29,572 nucleotides of DNA, from NCBI GenBank assembly GCA_013150955.1, contig JAADJD010000029.1:1-29572 (forward strand). Reading direction: 5' to 3'. Source of the stretch: Calditrichota bacterium. GTDB taxonomy: Bacteria > Calditrichota > Calditrichia > RBG-13-44-9 > J042. The translations under genes were made by a program, and so were the position numbers. The notes beneath the pieces were generated by a model. It saw only the letters and a list, made by a program, of their open reading frames with translations, searched no databases and was not told where the DNA came from. Positions 21,272 to 29,319 of this stretch are shown piece by piece. How positions within the stretch are numbered: position 1 is the first letter of the stretch; the number at the start of each line of letters is the position of its first letter.

Positions 21272-21333
21272 CCAACCACGAATGTATCCGGGAAAACATT
21301 TTCATCCAGATAGAATCCAGTGCATTTTATCCC
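21272..21333. repeat. Partial 160-bp repeat joined to copy D
   Basis: CCAACCACGAATG runs directly into the core TATCCGGGAAAACATTTTCA, skipping the usual inner arm. It is then broken off at CATTTTATCCC, where a complete copy in the other orientation starts. It looks like an internally deleted copy interrupted by insertion of another. Confidence 0.6.
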
Positions 21334-21497
21334 ATATTATGCATTAGACCATGAATTACACGAATTAACACAAATAAAATTAATAAAATAGGTTGAATCG
21401 TACCTGGATGAAAACTTGTTTTCGTGATTTATTCGCAATTTGTGGATGTGTTATGGTTTCATTCGTGTGATTCGCGGTTTAATACATTATTGGGATT
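21334..21497. repeat. 160-bp dispersed repeat, copy D
   Basis: Opens ATTATGCATTAGACCATGAA with arm TTACACGAATTAACACAAAT. Core TACCTGGATGAAAAC. Closes TTCATTCGTGTGATTCGCGG and TTTAATACATTATTGGG. The core is in the orientation opposite to copies A, B and C. Confidence 0.72.
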
Positions 21498-21966
21498 AAA
21501 TGAGCTGCAGCCTTCTGCAAGGGCCCTCTGGGAAAGACGCCAGCGCAGATCGGATGCACACCGGCATGTTTGCCGTATTTTTCGTCGGAAGCGGGTTGGA
21601 ATCGCTGCTCATTCGCCCCGCGTGCAAATCAGGCAGGAAGATAGAAATGCCACATTGAAATATTCTTGTTGGGTTTGCCCAACACCTGCCGGAAACAATC
21701 TGTTGGATAAAGTCGACAAAAATCCACACCGCGCCGAAGCCCCTGTGATCCAGAAGGAGCGATTCATGGAGGGATATTTTATTTTAACTCAATTGTTAAT
21801 AATAATTTATCCCTGATTCCCTTGCTATGCGAAGTAACCCAGCATGTGCACCAACCGGCGGCTGGCACAATGATTGTCTGCAATTAGAACCGGAGGCAGC
21901 GAGAGAGCAGGGGACAGCGGGATTAAATAATGGTTCGCATTTAATGATCATTCATATCGGGCCGGA
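21498..21966. other. Gene-free region before the receiver-domain fragment
   Basis: It is more GC-rich than the repeats but no convincing gene is seen. A 130-codon frame at 21424-21816 starts inside repeat copy D, has an Arg/Cys-rich implausible composition and no ribosome binding site. It could be eroded coding DNA. Confidence 0.4.
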
Positions 21967-22167
21967 ATGGATATGGAGATATCGATTTTAATTGTTCATC
22001 CAGAGTCAGATGTTTTGAAAAAACTGCGCGTCGTTCTGGTGCAGGCAGGATACAGCGTCATCACAGCCGACGATCTGGTTACCGCAGAGCGCATTCTGGA
22101 AAAAATGAAGGTGGATTTTGTCATGTATCCAACAGAACGGGAATTACCCGATCAATTCCACCGTTGA
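21967..22167 (+). pseudogene. Truncated, degenerate response-regulator receiver domain
   Basis: 66 codons: MEISILIVHPESDVLKKLRVVLVQAGYSVITADDLVTAERILEK and on. This is the beta1-alpha1-beta2-alpha2-beta3 half of a CheY-like receiver domain. The acidic pair after beta1 is His-Pro, and where the phosphorylated Asp should follow beta3 (VDLVILD) the sequence is VDFVMYPTE. The rest of the domain (Thr/Ser, Lys, alpha4-alpha5) is missing, because the frame stops at 22167. It cannot work as a phospho-receiver. The start could be Met1 or Met3; neither has a good ribosome binding site. It is probably a gene remnant, although the intact frame leaves open a small receiver-like protein. Confidence 0.6.
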
Positions 22168-22179
22168 GGGATCGGGATG

Positions 22180-22420
22180 AGTTTACCGGATGTCGCCATG
22201 GTTTCGCATGAACTGTATCCTGGAAGAAGGGTCGGGTTTTCGGAATCCCGAAATGGGAAGTGTAGAAGGCCATTGGGTTTGTCGGACGATCCCAGATGGG
22301 TTAAACCATAGATCACAGGGAGGTAAAGGGGTTTTCCTTATACAGATACCCCTGTGGTTCTGCCCCCACAGCCAATCCGGGCTGGTATAGTATCCCACCT
22401 CTGCCAGCCCGGCTTTTTTT
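22180..22420 (+). ncRNA. Candidate structured transcript ending at the orphan terminator
   Basis: This stretch has no coding frame of quality but holds several complementary segments: CACAGGG near 22313 with CCCTGTG near 22350, the hairpin at 22352-22371, and the terminator stem at 22377-22412. It could be a small RNA or the long 3' end of the receiver fragment's transcript. I compared it by eye to common riboswitch, 6S, tmRNA, SRP and RNase P signatures and found no match. Confidence 0.25.
22352..22420 (+). terminator. Strong intrinsic terminator with preceding hairpin
   Basis: CCGGGCTGG (22377-22385) pairs with CCAGCCCGG (22404-22412), followed by CTTTTTTTA. Just before it is CTGTGG-ttctgccc-CCACAG (22352-22371). 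This is the best rho-independent terminator in the window, yet the nearest plus-strand gene end is 22167, about 210 bases upstream. Confidence 0.8.
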
Positions 22421-22474
22421 ATGGTGGAGGAACTACGAATAACCCGAATAACTCCCAATAAACCCAAATTATCC

Positions 22475-22637
22475 CAAATTATGCAATAAACCGCGAATCA
22501 CGCGAATGAAACCAAAAAATATCGGCAAAATAGCAAATAATCCCCGGAATACATTTTAATACAGACACAATCCAATGTATTTTATTGGTTTTATTGGTGT
22601 TAATTCGTGTCATTCGTAGGCTGTTGCTTAATCTGGG
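22475..22637. repeat. 160-bp dispersed repeat, copy E
   Basis: Opens AATTATGCAATAAACCGCG with arm AATCACGCGAATGAAACC. Core TCCCCGGAATACATTTTAA. Closes TTAATTCGTGTCATTCGTAG and GCTTAATCTGGG. It is followed without a gap by copy F in the same orientation. Confidence 0.8.
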
Positions 22638-22797
22638 ATTATGCATGATACCGCGAATTACGCGAATACATCCGAAAAATATATACAAAATCGTTAATTT
22701 CTCCCGGAGCACATTTTCATCCAGACAGAGTCAAACCTATTTTATTATTTCTTTTGTGTTTATTCGTGTCATTCGTAGGCTAAGGCACAATCTGGGG
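22638..22797. repeat. 160-bp dispersed repeat, copy F
   Basis: Opens ATTATGCATGATACCGCG with arm AATTACGCGAATACATCC. Core CTCCCGGAGCACATTTTCAT. Closes TTTATTCGTGTCATTCGTAG and GCACAATCTGGGG. It is in direct tandem with copy E, but the two differ at many positions, so this is not a recent duplication. Confidence 0.8.
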
Positions 22798-22982: not shown

Positions 22983-25900
22983 GTGAGTACTGTTTTGAAC
23001 CGATATGGACATCAGGGCCGATGGCTGCTGGTTTTACTGGGATGGGTGCTTCTCCCGATGGCCGCCGCTGCCGGTGCGGGCAATATCCAGTATCCCCGTA
23101 CCGGCTTCAAACTCAATAAGGAAGTCACCATTCCTCTGGTACTGTCCATTGTTCAGGATAATAAAGGGTTTTTGTGGTTCGGTAACGATAATGGCCTGTT
23201 TCGCTACGATGGCTACCGGTTAAAACGTTATGCGTATTCCCCCAATGATCCCAATTCGTTAACCACCTCCGTGGTGAGTCGCATTTTCTTCGAACATCCG
23301 GATTATTTGTGGATCCGTTCCGGTTTAAGTGGCCTCAACCGCATTCACCTCAAAACGCACCGGATTGCGTATTTTTATCATAACCCGAATAATGATTCCA
23401 CCATTTCGTCCAATCGGTTATTTCACATTTTTCAGGGCATTTCGGGAACGTTATGGTTTTTCACCATAAGAGGCATCGATCGCTTTTACCGGAAGATCGA
23501 TCCCCGGACAGGGCAGCTTGTGGAATATTTCCTCAATGCAGGAAGACCTCGCTTGCTAACATTTGAACATTTCATTCAACAAAACTGGCAATTATTACGA
23601 AACAAAGACGTTGCCTTGATTTTTGGGGCACCGAACAACAAATCCTTTTTTGTATTCCATCCGCGACGGGAAGTGTGTTACGAAGTTCAGGTGCCGGAAA
23701 CATTGTTCCCCAGGCCGTTTTCGATATTATGCACTTTTGTGGATGAACGACATCGTCAGTTATGGATCGGTGGAACGAATGGCCTGCTACTCTGCATCGA
23801 TCTGGTCAGCAAATCGTGGGAAATCGTTCCCCTGCTGCAGTGGTTCCCTGAACTGCAATCCGTGAACATCGAGATTATCTGGATCGATTCCAGGGATCGC
23901 ATCTGGTTATTTACCGAACGAATGGGGATTCTGGTACTGGATCGTGATGAGCGTACCCTGTTGCGCTATTTTGATGATGGATCGTCCCAGCCACTTTTAC
24001 ACGGAAAGCGCATCACGGCATTTTTATACGACCGATCCGGAATTTTGTGGGTGGCCACGGATGTGGGGATAAACAAACTGATTCTGGATCAGCCGCCATT
24101 TCTGCATGTTCGTCCCTTCCCTCAGGTTGCGGAGAACGCGGCCGTGAATAATTGTCAGGCCCTGGCAGTGGATCCCCAGCAATATCTGTGGATTGCTGCA
24201 GACCGTCGGATACACCGCATGCACATTCCCACACTGACATTTGAATATGATTTGCAAAACCGCTGGATTACCCGTGGCTTTCCGCGGAATAAAATTATTA
24301 AAACCCTCTTTGTCGATTCGCGCGGAGATGTCTGGATTGGCTTGAATTCGTCCAGATTATTCCGTTACCGCCCTCAAACGGGTGCAATGGATGTATATCA
24401 AATACCTGGCGGGGAGTACAAGCTGGTGCGTAGCATTATGGAAGATCCTCAGGGTTTTTTGTGGATTGGAGTGGATTTCCCGCATGGGGGGATTTTTAAA
24501 CTGGATCCGGAAACAGGTAACATGCAATCGTTTCTGCCTGAACCAGGGAATCCACGCGCCCCCACATCCAGTCAGGTCTGGCGGGTGATGAAAGATCGCC
24601 GGGGTTATTACTGGTTTACCTATTGGGGCGACGGGGTGGATGTGTACGATCCCCGAACGGGAAGATTTTACAACTTTCGTTACCAGAAGAACGATCCCCA
24701 TTCCATCAGCTCCAATTATGTGACCAGCATTGCGGAGACCTCGGATGGTACCGTCTGGCTGGGAACCTGGGATGGGGGATTGAATAAGGTGGAGTCTTTT
24801 ACTCCCGCGGAAGCGGATGGGGCGTCGGGGATTTCGATCCGGTTTAAACGTTATACGGAAAGCGAGGGGCTGGATGCCAGCAACCAGGTGGGGGTGATTG
24901 TGGTGGATCTGCGGGATCATTTGTGGCTGGTCACCGGAAATGGCCTGACGCGGTTCGATCCCCAGAGTGAACGGTTTAAGGATTATTCCCTGGACGATGG
25001 ATTACAATCCCGCATGTTCAATGTCAATGCCTTTGCCCAATCGCCAAACGGTACCCTGTTTTTTGGTGGAACCAACGGATTTAACGTTTTTCATCCCGAT
25101 AGTTTTCAGCTTAACCGCCATGTTCCACCGGTGGTGATTACAGGATTGACCGTTATGGGAGAACCCGCCCCACTGGATACGGTGATTTATTATAAGAAGC
25201 GTGTGAAGATTCCCTACAAGTCCAAGGTCTTTTCCATCGAGTTTTCCGCGCTGGATTTCCGGGCACCTGAAAATAATCAATTTCAGTACATGCTGGAAGG
25301 CTTCGATACTCAATGGACGAACAGCGGAAAACGGCGGTATGTCACCTACACCAATCTGGATCCAGGGGAATACGTTTTTCGGGTGCGGGCGGCCAATAAT
25401 GATGGGGTATGGAATACCACCGGTGCCCGGTTGACCATTGTCATTACACCGCCCTGGTATCGTACCTGGTGGGCGTTCTTGATTTACAGTGTGCTGGGCG
25501 GGTTGTTGCTGCTGGCTGTTCGCTGGGGCATTGTTAATCGCCGGCAGTTGATGCACCTGCGTGCGCGCAAGATCTCGCATTACAAGCTGATGAGTGTGCT
25601 GGGTGAAGGGGGCATGGGGGTGGTTTACAAATCCCTGGATCTGAATACCCGGCGGGTGGTGGCGCTCAAACTGTTAAATAAGGATTTGTTAAGTGACCCC
25701 GAAAATCGGAACCGTTTTGCTAACGAAGGCCGTCTGCTGCAATCCTTTTCCCATCCCCACATTGTGAAGGTCTATGAAGTCGGCGAAACCGAAACTCAGG
25801 GTTTTATTGCCATGGAATACCTGACCGGGGGCACGCTAAAGGATTATCTGACCCGGCACCATCCGCTTCCCTTGCAGGAGGTGCGGCGATTTTTGCTGCA

Positions 25901-26378
25901 GATTGCCGATGGATTGCTGGCCATTCACCAGCAGGGGATCGTGCATCGCGATCTGAAACTGGCCAATATCATGCTGGACGAAGAAAACAACATTCGCATC
26001 ATGGACTTTGGGCTTTCCAAATCGCACCTGATTGCCACCATGACCAATCTGGGAACGGTCATTGGCACGCTGGGGTATGTGGCGCCGGAACAGATTACTG
26101 GGGTTCAGGTGGATCATCGGGTGGATATTTTTTCATTCGGGGTGATCATGTACGAGCTGCTGACCGGCGAGATGCCATTTAAAGGCGAGAATGAGATGGC
26201 CATGATTCACGCCATTTTCAATACCCAGCCGCCACCGCCGTCTGCCCTCAACCGGCGCCATGGTATCCGGGAGTGGGATGAAATCGTCATGAGTTGCCTG
26301 GCGAAAAATCCCACCCAGCGCTTTCGCTCGGTGGAGGAAATCATCGCCCGGCTGCAGCAGGTGGAAGTGGTCGTCTGA
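22983..26378 (+). CDS. Periplasmic propeller/Y_Y_Y sensor fused to a Ser/Thr protein kinase
   Basis: 1131 residues starting with GTG. A signal peptide or anchor (about 12-32) is followed by about 14 propeller blades with the Reg_prop motif (KGFLWFGNDNGLFRYDG, SGILWVATDVGINKL, DGTVWLGTWDGGLNKV and others), enough for two seven-bladed propellers. A Y_Y_Y domain follows at about 740-825 (FSIEFSALDF, QYMLEGFDTQW, YTNLDPGEYVFRVRAAN). One membrane helix is at about 829-851. The cytoplasmic part is a complete Hanks-type kinase: Gly loop GEGGMG near 874, VALKLL lysine near 895, HRDLKLAN with Asp990, DFG at 1008-1010, APE near 1034, and DIFSFGVIMYELLTGEMPF. All key residues are present. The sensor half is that of hybrid two-component sensors (HTCS), where a histidine kinase is expected. 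It probably couples a periplasmic ligand, perhaps a glycan, to Ser/Thr phosphorylation. Only 37 bases separate its stop from that of the convergent DctP gene. Confidence 0.92.
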   Translation: MSTVLNRYGHQGRWLLVLLGWVLLPMAAAAGAGNIQYPRTGFKLNKEVTIPLVLSIVQDNKGFLWFGNDNGLFRYDGYRLKRYAYSPNDPNSLTTSVVSRIFFEHPDYLWIRSGLSGLNRIHLKTHRIAYFYHNPNNDSTISSNRLFHIFQGISGTLWFFTIRGIDRFYRKIDPRTGQLVEYFLNAGRPRLLTFEHFIQQNWQLLRNKDVALIFGAPNNKSFFVFHPRREVCYEVQVPETLFPRPFSILCTFVDERHRQLWIGGTNGLLLCIDLVSKSWEIVPLLQWFPELQSVNIEIIWIDSRDRIWLFTERMGILVLDRDERTLLRYFDDGSSQPLLHGKRITAFLYDRSGILWVATDVGINKLILDQPPFLHVRPFPQVAENAAVNNCQALAVDPQQYLWIAADRRIHRMHIPTLTFEYDLQNRWITRGFPRNKIIKTLFVDSRGDVWIGLNSSRLFRYRPQTGAMDVYQIPGGEYKLVRSIMEDPQGFLWIGVDFPHGGIFKLDPETGNMQSFLPEPGNPRAPTSSQVWRVMKDRRGYYWFTYWGDGVDVYDPRTGRFYNFRYQKNDPHSISSNYVTSIAETSDGTVWLGTWDGGLNKVESFTPAEADGASGISIRFKRYTESEGLDASNQVGVIVVDLRDHLWLVTGNGLTRFDPQSERFKDYSLDDGLQSRMFNVNAFAQSPNGTLFFGGTNGFNVFHPDSFQLNRHVPPVVITGLTVMGEPAPLDTVIYYKKRVKIPYKSKVFSIEFSALDFRAPENNQFQYMLEGFDTQWTNSGKRRYVTYTNLDPGEYVFRVRAANNDGVWNTTGARLTIVITPPWYRTWWAFLIYSVLGGLLLLAVRWGIVNRRQLMHLRARKISHYKLMSVLGEGGMGVVYKSLDLNTRRVVALKLLNKDLLSDPENRNRFANEGRLLQSFSHPHIVKVYEVGETETQGFIAMEYLTGGTLKDYLTRHHPLPLQEVRRFLLQIADGLLAIHQQGIVHRDLKLANIMLDEENNIRIMDFGLSKSHLIATMTNLGTVIGTLGYVAPEQITGVQVDHRVDIFSFGVIMYELLTGEMPFKGENEMAMIHAIFNTQPPPPSALNRRHGIREWDEIVMSCLAKNPTQRFRSVEEIIARLQQVEVVV

Positions 26379-26415: not shown

Positions 26416-27543
26416 TTACCGCATTAACACATTGTAATACATCTTTTCGGACACCGTTGCCCATTCCCCCACACGCTGCTGGAATTGATGGAAGGATTGA
26501 TATACCTTCTTGCTGAAGGGATCTTTTTCCACCACTTCCTGGATCACTTCCTGTGACAACTGGCGAAATTTCTCCAGTACATCGTCGGGGAATTTTTTGA
26601 TCTGGACTTTTCCTTCTGCCAGGATTTTTTGCAGATATTCGGTGTTTTTGGATTCAAATTCCGAAAGCACCCAGGTGTTCAAGCGCCAGGCCGCCACGCG
26701 AATGATGTGTTGCAAATCCGTTGGTAATTGCTCGAAAGCCGCTTTGTTGCAGATCAGTTCTGTGACCGTGCCCGGTTCGTGCCAGCCGGGATAGTAGTAA
26801 TATTTCGCGATCCGGTGGAATCCCATCAGGTAATCGTGGTAGGGGCCGATCCATTCCGTCGCATCAATGACCCCGCGTTCCAGGTTGGTATAAATTTCTC
26901 CCCCTGCAGAAAGAATGGCCGAGCCTCCGGCTTTTGCGATGACTTTTCCGCCCAATCCGGGAATCCGCATTTTCAATCCTTTCAAATCTTCCAGGGAATG
27001 GATTTCTTTATTGAACCATCCACCCATTTGCACGCCGGTGTTACCGCCGGGGAAGGGCACCAGGTTAAACTGGGCATAAAGTTCGCGCCATAATTCCATG
27101 CCGCCACCAGCATCAATCCAGGCGTGCATTTGCTGGGCATTCATCCCGAACGGAACCGCGGCAAAGAATTGAGCCGCCGGGGCCTTGCCAGCCCAGTAGT
27201 AAGACGCCCCGTGCCCCATCTCCGCCACTCCCTGGCTGACGGCATCGAACACCTGAAGGGGAGGAACCAGTTCGCCTCCCCCATAGACTTTTATTTTTAA
27301 TCGTCCCGCAGACATATCCTCCACCCATCTGGCGAAGTGCTCCGCACCCTCGCCCAGGGCAGGGAAATGAGGTGGCCAGGTGGTCACCATCTTCCATTCG
27401 AACGTTTTGTTGGTAATCACGGCCGGAGCTTTCCCGGAGGGAGCCTCGTTCTGGCGGGCACAACCCATGGCCAGCAGGGGACTGCTCCAGATCACTGCCT
27501 TTCCCAGAGTACCCAGAAATTGACGCCGCTTGATTCCCGACAT
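26416..27543 (-). CDS. TRAP transporter substrate-binding lipoprotein, DctP/TakP family
   Basis: 375 residues. The N-terminus has a twin-arginine-type signal (KRRQFLGTLGKAV) followed by a lipobox, LLAMGC, so the protein is probably exported folded and lipid-anchored. The body fits the DctP family: FEWKMVTTWPPHFPALGEGAE, VYGGGELVPPLQVFDAVSQG, GGWFNKEIHSLEDLKGLKMR, IPGLGGKVIAKAGGSAI, TEWIGPYHDYLMGFH. Similarity is closest in style to TakP, the 2-oxo-acid binder. No DctQ or DctM membrane gene is in the window. Start: AGGAG lies 8 bases before the ATG at 27543; the GTG at 27552 is too close to it. A good promoter (27574-27602) lies just upstream. The protein ends with a helix typical of the family. 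Confidence 0.9.
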   Translation of the reverse strand: MSGIKRRQFLGTLGKAVIWSSPLLAMGCARQNEAPSGKAPAVITNKTFEWKMVTTWPPHFPALGEGAEHFARWVEDMSAGRLKIKVYGGGELVPPLQVFDAVSQGVAEMGHGASYYWAGKAPAAQFFAAVPFGMNAQQMHAWIDAGGGMELWRELYAQFNLVPFPGGNTGVQMGGWFNKEIHSLEDLKGLKMRIPGLGGKVIAKAGGSAILSAGGEIYTNLERGVIDATEWIGPYHDYLMGFHRIAKYYYYPGWHEPGTVTELICNKAAFEQLPTDLQHIIRVAAWRLNTWVLSEFESKNTEYLQKILAEGKVQIKKFPDDVLEKFRQLSQEVIQEVVEKDPFSKKVYQSFHQFQQRVGEWATVSEKMYYNVLMR

Positions 27544-27573
27544 AAGCCACACTCCTTATTTTTGCCTGCTGGA

Positions 27574-28083: not shown

Positions 28084-29319
28084 TCAGGATGCGGGATTCA
28101 TCACCACGCCCATGAAGATGATGGTATTGGCCTGGTTTTCCCGGATCAGGAACAGAAAGGGGCGGTTTACGGCAATCACTGGCGGAACGCTCACAACGTC
28201 AAACAGGATGGCCGTCACCGCAGCGGCTTCTGTGCCCTTTTCATCTACCTGAACGGCAGCACTATGGCTCACCCGAGAAATGAACAGCCTCTTGTCCGAT
28301 ATACCGGAAAAATCCGCCTGGTCGGGATGAAAAGCAACGGCCATTCCCATGGCCTTCAGGATGTCGTTTAATGTTGTGTTAAACGTGTACTTGAATTTTG
28401 GGAGATACAGATCGGCTTTTATGGAGTCCAGTTGCTGAAAATATGTCGTCAGGGTTTCCGGGGTAAGCTGCTGAATGACGTCCAGCAACGAAGTAGACTC
28501 CTCGGGCAGGAAGATGGTCATGCGGAAACGCCTGTTGCCGTAAGGTAGATCGACGATGGTGCCCCATTCCGTTTGAGTACGAAACACGGTTCCCTCCCGA
28601 TACATGGTCGGGACGGTAATTTCTTCCCCGGTGGCCAGATAAAAGGGACGTTCTTCCGTATCGCTGGCCGAAAAGGGGTATGACCACATCCCTTTAAAAT
28701 AAATGGCGTTGATTAAGAAGAGCATTGTATCGTCGGAGATTTTATCCACAATTTTACGAATCATCCCATTGGTCTGGGTACTTGCCCAGTTGTTAATGGT
28801 TTGCATGGCCAGCGGAGATTGGAAATCCAGGGCGGCAATTTCTGCAAAGTAGTATTTTGCCAGAACCTGCATAAAGGGGGACTTAATGGGAAAGCCCTTC
28901 CGGTAAAACAGGCTGTTTGCAATTTTAAATTCCACCGCCGGGTCCAGCTCCATAAGCAATTGGATCAGAGAGTGAGAATAGGTATTGATGGCCTCCAGGT
29001 TCATGTCCTGGAATTGGAGGGTGTTGTAAATCGCCTCGTAAGTTTCCCCGTAGGCACCGTTTAAAGCCATCGATAGGGCCAGCGAAATGCTGAGCGGGGA
29101 AACAAAGATGTTCTTTTGCCGGGGAATTTCCTGGTCACTTAATCGTTGAAACAACTGAATAGCAAAATGGTTGGAGGATTGAATCAGCTGCAGCTCCTCT
29201 GGAGTGAAAGGGCGATTTTTTAGATCCGGAGATTCGATGGAGGAGATTGGGGTATTGTCGCACTGGATCAGAAAAAGCCCCAGAATAAAAATCACCCATA
29301 ACCTGCTTCGCGAAATCAT
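28084..29319 (-). CDS. Lipoprotein serpin (serine protease inhibitor)
   Basis: 411 residues, about the normal serpin length. The signal ends FLIQC, with Cys20 as the probable lipid anchor. Serpin landmarks follow in order: NHFAIQLFQRL, NIFVSPLSISLALSMALNGA, INNWASTQTNGMIRKIV, LINAIYFKGMWSYPF, VDLPYGNRRFRMTIFLP, FKYTFNTTLNDILKAMGM, HSAAVQVDEKGTEAAAVTA and VNRPFLFLIRENQANTIIFMG. The hinge KGTEAAAVTA has the small residues needed for an inhibitory serpin. The loop from Gly362 to the PP pair aligns without gaps with alpha-1-antitrypsin, placing Val376 at P1 and Ser377 at P1'. Val at P1 suggests an elastase- or subtilisin-like target. AGGAGG lies about 7 bases before the ATG. A 20-base palindrome lies 25 bases upstream. 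It probably protects the envelope from proteases, its own or foreign. Confidence 0.93.
   Translation of the reverse strand: MISRSRLWVIFILGLFLIQCDNTPISSIESPDLKNRPFTPEELQLIQSSNHFAIQLFQRLSDQEIPRQKNIFVSPLSISLALSMALNGAYGETYEAIYNTLQFQDMNLEAINTYSHSLIQLLMELDPAVEFKIANSLFYRKGFPIKSPFMQVLAKYYFAEIAALDFQSPLAMQTINNWASTQTNGMIRKIVDKISDDTMLFLINAIYFKGMWSYPFSASDTEERPFYLATGEEITVPTMYREGTVFRTQTEWGTIVDLPYGNRRFRMTIFLPEESTSLLDVIQQLTPETLTTYFQQLDSIKADLYLPKFKYTFNTTLNDILKAMGMAVAFHPDQADFSGISDKRLFISRVSHSAAVQVDEKGTEAAAVTAILFDVVSVPPVIAVNRPFLFLIRENQANTIIFMGVVMNPAS

Follow-up and report, generated by a model that had tools for sequence, protein, structure and literature searches.

The window analysed here, a 29,572-base stretch corresponding to the entire contig C35, encodes what is likely a transmembrane receptor Ser/Thr kinase, in which ligand-driven rearrangement of a dimer, relayed via a short linker, would lead to trans-autophosphorylation and to phosphorylation of cytoplasmic Ser/Thr targets. 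As predicted from sequence and structural modelling, the protein comprises a double propeller with a Y_Y_Y domain, one transmembrane helix followed by a basic linker, and, at the C-terminus, a PknB-like kinase that is intact (Table 1). The source genome (G000; 4.07 Mb, 66 contigs, 99.7 % complete) also harbours a classical HTCS, L080, which served as a positive control and contains 13 Reg_prop, Y_Y_Y, HisKA, HATPase, receiver and AraC HTH domains. A preliminary description of this DNA had proposed coupling between an HTCS-type sensor and a Ser/Thr kinase; this is borne out, with the classical form present alongside it.

Table 1. Features of the receptor kinase gene and its upstream region within the window
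Feature	Position	Strand	Details
Receptor Ser/Thr kinase ORF	22983–26378	+	1131 aa, one open frame, no internal stop
Signal-peptide-like hydrophobic N-terminal helix	22983–23075	+	Residues 1–31; model helix 9–31; sequence RWLLVLLGWVLLPMAAAAGAG
Reg_prop propeller 1, seven-bladed	23139–24110	+	Residues 53–376; Pfam, AlphaFold, structure match
Reg_prop propeller 2, seven-bladed	24153–25154	+	Residues 391–724; Pfam, AlphaFold, sequence and structure match
Y_Y_Y domain	25182–25448	+	Residues 734–822; Pfam 759–821; sandwich strands 740–822 in model
Transmembrane helix, single	25467–25535	+	Residues 829–851; hydropathy estimate and model
Basic juxtamembrane linker, short	25536–25580	+	Residues 852–866; helix 853–861; RxRKISH motif
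Hanks-type Ser/Thr kinase domain	25581–26327	+	Residues 867–1115; full catalytic motif set
Activation segment DFG...APE	26004–26090	+	Holds conserved Thr1021 and Thr1029
Half-receiver-like short ORF without phospho-acceptor region	21973–22164	+	Judged outside the system

Domain architecture and predicted structure

The kinase gene starts with a GTG codon immediately 3′ of an in-frame TGA, with TTG at 22995 as an alternative start. Pfam matches of its product to Reg_prop, Y_Y_Y and Pkinase (90.4, 70.8 and 203.8 bits, respectively) are all above cut-offs; only five Reg_prop stretches pass individually, and 11 blade motifs are found by simple pattern. The AlphaFold2 model, built from a 26-row alignment (A3) and with a mean pLDDT of 81.5, displays 2 × 7 four-stranded blades, a count that is our own reading of the strands listed for residues 53–376 and 391–724, followed by a Y_Y_Y sandwich, helices at 829–851 and 853–861, and a kinase from residue 867. 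The second of these helices lies in the linker, between the transmembrane helix and the kinase, where model confidence is low (pLDDT about 54), as it is at the activation loop. The arrangement originally noted, of some 14 blades, Y_Y_Y, one membrane helix and a complete kinase, is confirmed by Pfam, motifs and AlphaFold taken together.

Structural alignment using VIA-align returns Z 35.1 for the sensor against BT3049 (3v9f; 696 residues, rmsd 5.3), Z 32–33 against BT4663 (4a2l/4a2m), and Z about 29 for the kinase domain against Stk1/PknB, with Foldseek matches agreeing for both modules. Alignment of sequence to 4a2l gives 156 bits for propeller 2 plus Y_Y_Y and 31 bits for blades 1–2, in the same order. 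The fold and the Gly loop, Lys, HRD, DFG and APE motifs of a Hanks-type kinase are present, with GEGGMGVV at residue 874, K896 within VALK, E915, HRDLKLAN at 988, DFG at 1008, APE at 1034 and DIFSFG at 1048. Amongst the Reg_prop kinases, the activation-loop residues Thr1021 and Thr1029 are conserved in 31/33 and 33/33 sequences, respectively. The PknB dimer-interface positions Arg10 and Asp76 (a D76A mutant of which is among the solved structures) align with His866 and Glu932 of the window protein; the first of the latter is His, Lys or Arg in 24/33 fusions and the second is acidic in 23/33. The idea that this pair sets these receptors apart was rejected, as N-terminal kinases possess it too.

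Downstream, and convergent with the kinase gene, is a DctP-type solute-binding protein gene (26416–27552, − strand); no TRAP membrane subunit was found among the window ORFs scanned. A full-length serpin (28084–29319, − strand; 378.5 bits) is located near the contig end, and no RNA elements scored above gathering scores in the window. Upstream, the region 21281–22796 carries a dispersed intergenic repeat in which TTATTCGTGTCATTCGTAGGC-like and GCGAATTACGCGAAT-like blocks occur; it has two direct copies of 119 nt (74 %), an inverted one of 171 nt (74 %) and further partial direct copies. It is in this repeat-rich stretch that the half-receiver ORF sits, with no tie to the kinase seen. The ORF matches Response_reg over model positions 1–47 of 111, and its score of 20.5 bits falls short of the 30.2-bit cut-off. 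A short homologue is present on contig C1 of the same genome (L207:1417–1704; 46 % identity, E 8.7e-12), and both ORFs stop around the strand expected to bear the phospho-acceptor Asp; instead of a one-off pseudogene, the half-receivers may represent a small truncated receiver that recurs. Due to this second homologue, and to the absence of receivers among the neighbour genes scanned at other fusions, the suggestion that the fragment is the trace of a former two-component partner is unsupported.

Recurrence of the fusion and exchange of its modules

The sensor–transmembrane helix–kinase arrangement recurs in at least 33 copies from at least 29 genomes, spanning at least four phyla. Using an alignment of the Y_Y_Y–transmembrane–kinase part (A2), 10 copies of the fusion were detected in Calditrichota, where 8 of the 40 genomes carry it, with scores in this phylum separating into 746–839 bits for fusions, 400–465 for kinases bearing FG-GAP repeats and 319 or less for other kinases. 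In genome sets that are samples and not a census, it is also present in 6/9 genomes of the small phylum holding Bacteroidetes bacterium HKST-UBA01 (the phylum of G041) and, where up to four candidates per genome were scored, in at least 3 of 394 Bacteroidota genomes and at least 12 of 396 Acidobacteriota genomes (at least 14 copies); the same scoring of 387 Verrucomicrobiota genomes gave no fusion at E 1e-82. Pfam confirms Reg_prop, Y_Y_Y and Pkinase in representatives from each positive phylum, and the Y_Y_Y–kinase part has no match on plasmids at E 1e-60. The fusion is recurrent yet infrequent, and the case raised earlier, that it might be well described and common, does not apply, with no description found in open-access papers.

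It is highly improbable that the gene is an assembly join, or a functionless fusion that arose by chance or is decaying in a single genome. The fusion is absent from G001–G003, which share the source genus and family, and the upstream intergenic region with its dispersed repeats and half-receiver would also fit such an origin; however, the frame is intact, all catalytic motifs are present, and the same order recurs in the numbers given above. A join or frameshift at 25470–25570, envisaged as a means by which sensor and kinase could be artificially united, is refuted, as independent assemblies show this junction again, which is thus not an assembly artefact.

The full alignment (A1) shows two kinds of ectodomain joined to the kinase and its juxtamembrane RxRxISHYKL motif, namely Reg_prop/Y_Y_Y or FG-GAP repeats, the latter with a PSII_BNR-like stretch ahead of the repeats and, in one member (L088), an UnbV_ASPIC match. 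The FG-GAP receptor Ser/Thr kinases (L064:6023–9505, L088:1493–5170, L094:4289–7891 and L070:6080–9652) belong to Calditrichota and Ignavibacteria, have several membrane helices in some cases, and carry an integrin-like propeller on the same kinase branch as the window protein.

Kinases with the two sensor types are intermixed in one supported 40-row set of the kinase tree (99/98 to 100/98), and in a wider tree all 57 C-terminal-kinase rows, including those from Acidobacteriota, fall on one side of a 98/87 branch. The window protein has each of the features by which this set is defined (sensor, transmembrane helix, short linker, C-terminal kinase and position on the supported branch). A single clade is rejected for the Reg_prop kinases (p-AU 0.0001), for the FG-GAP kinases (0.007) and for four kinases whose sensors group together (0.0045), with these values weakened by the groups having been named only after the trees had been inspected. 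For G008 and G015, the kinase of the Reg_prop receptor has as its closest kinase that of the FG-GAP receptor found in this genome pair. In the sensor tree, kinase-linked sensors are scattered among histidine-kinase-linked ones; that of the window groups with L081 and L082 (97/94), and L201 and L205 combine a closely related sensor with a distant kinase. As neither sensor type forms one clade in the kinase trees, sensors and kinases have been exchanged repeatedly, with the number and direction of exchanges not readable from these unrooted trees. Thus, whilst the earlier proposal of a rewired sensor stands insofar as the sensor is joined to a Ser/Thr kinase, a single event is too simple an account. 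Independent exchange of the two modules would be expected if their junction is a working module boundary.

Linker dimensions bear on the same junction. In 35 Reg_prop rows, two of which are overlapping copies of an already counted gene, simple hydropathy estimates place 15–24 residues between transmembrane helix and kinase, three to eight of them basic, as opposed to 16–99 residues (median 31.5) in N-terminal kinases. The short and length-restricted nature of this segment suggests that coupling of membrane to kinase is mechanical rather than tethered.

Two loci from Zixibacteria-type genomes (L109:5411–7840 and L139:5360–7849) have CHASE2 N-terminal to a C-terminal Ser/Thr kinase of a separate lineage, and in Ignavibacteria-type genomes (L098–L105) N-terminal Ser/Thr kinases of 700–1000 aa are arrayed in tandem, several at a time. 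L083 and L087 (WYBG01) bear the title Deltaproteobacteria bacterium PRO9, which is probably wrong: they match contigs of G015, assigned by genome search to the same order as the window.

The balance tilts modestly towards these proteins forming a family of receptor Ser/Thr kinases of reversed topology, whose N-terminal beta-propellers are exchangeable, present in Acidobacteriota, Calditrichota, Bacteroidota and the HKST-UBA01 phylum. If so, the family would share its layout with the receptor kinases of animals and plants, and sensing of glycan type (HTCS) or integrin-like type (FG-GAP) would go straight to Ser/Thr phosphorylation. The fusion shows the HTCS sensor to be a plug-in module, not bound to histidine phosphorelays, and uncultured soil and sediment bacteria may gain a route from extracellular signals to Ser/Thr phosphorylation. 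Natural sensor/kinase chimeras, such as those of G008 and G015, in which nearly sister kinases bear different propeller sensors, offer a means of studying how bacterial receptors pass a signal across the membrane to a Hanks kinase.

Proposed signalling and the nature of the ligand

PknB activation is dimer-based, and a scissor-like closing has reportedly been seen for BT4663. As both modules are thought to be dimeric, the simplest joint mechanism would be ligand-induced dimer rearrangement followed by trans-autophosphorylation. With the N-terminus predicted to be periplasmic and the C-terminus cytoplasmic, a periplasmic ligand (an oligosaccharide in HTCS relatives) would bind the propellers of a receptor dimer, upon which the Y_Y_Y domains may move. 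A nearly continuous transmembrane–juxtamembrane helix would transmit this motion without a flexible linker, such that the paired kinase domains could trans-phosphorylate their activation-loop Thr residues, with the activated kinase then phosphorylating cytoplasmic Ser/Thr targets.

With regard to genomic context, no conserved operon partner or substrate gene is present among ten neighbours at five relatives, which are mixed (methyltransferase, MacB/FtsX, UDG-like and ROK genes), with an alpha/beta hydrolase adjoining two of the five. No polysaccharide utilisation locus was seen in the window or among the scanned neighbours of relatives and, as the neighbours are also unconserved, a glycan ligand is here without support. 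It is possible, albeit doubtful, that the propellers are mainly a protein–protein or envelope-docking module (PorZ- or adhesion-like), with the kinase reporting envelope state or contact instead of a small glycan: FG-GAP/UnbV propellers occur on the same kinase branch, the window sensor matches the PorZ model, although below its cut-off, and sugar-utilisation genes were not found adjoining the kinase gene. Set against this, the nearest solved folds are HTCS sensors, and HTCS sensors of the same architecture bind oligosaccharides (PMC3243724).

Beyond the choice of ligand, the kinase could conceivably act as a cross-talk device that tunes HTCS pathways of the same cell through Ser/Thr phosphorylation of histidine kinases or response regulators, although this is unlikely. 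The genome does encode Reg_prop histidine kinases with related sensors, HTCS included, and response regulators are known targets of Ser/Thr kinases in other bacteria; however, a two-component gene is neither adjacent nor operonic in the window or among the scanned neighbours of relatives. Only three Pkinase matches exist across G000, the other two being N-terminal kinases with PEGA domains, and the genome has no match to a PP2C_2-type phosphatase.

Comparison with known systems

Both modules of the receptor kinase are already known; it is their combination, and the reversed-topology set, that are little described. No pairing of Reg_prop or a regulator propeller with a Ser/Thr kinase was found in the open-access literature searched, nor any description of the reversed-topology set. 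The relevant passages of two kinase surveys mention only PQQ-type and PknD propellers. None of the NCBIfam equivalogs fits the window protein.

The sensor resembles those of the HTCS proteins BT4663 and BT3049, with which it shares a periplasmic double seven-bladed Reg_prop propeller, Y_Y_Y and one membrane helix (Z 32–35); some 24 % of residues are identical across a stretch of 700. By Pfam, however, the window protein is without HisKA, HATPase_c, receiver and AraC HTH domains, and its output is a Hanks-type kinase. This kinase in turn resembles PknB, Stk1 and StkP in its motifs and in its fold (Z about 29), and is about 37 % identical to PknB. Whilst PASTA kinases carry an N-terminal kinase and a C-terminal sensor, the window protein is reversed, with a propeller sensor and a short linker; its match to the PASTA kinase NCBIfam model (295.9 bits against a cut-off of 450) is confined to the kinase domain, and Pfam finds no PASTA repeats in it. 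More broadly, the kinase is N-terminal in the majority of Ser/Thr kinases among related sequences, an order that the window protein inverts.

In Mycobacterium tuberculosis PknD the kinase is N-terminal and a single six-bladed propeller is C-terminal, whereas the window protein has the opposite order, with an N-terminal sensor of 7 + 7 blades plus Y_Y_Y. The likeness between the two is that PknD is also a transmembrane Ser/Thr kinase with a beta-propeller sensor, in that case extracellular (PMC2877116, PMC6213207). Xanthomonas GdpX2 and GdpX3 carry the same Reg_prop/Y_Y_Y sensor on a GGDEF-domain protein (PMC6637768), and so are likewise cases in which it is not paired with a histidine kinase; their output is GGDEF, whilst that of the window protein is a protein kinase.
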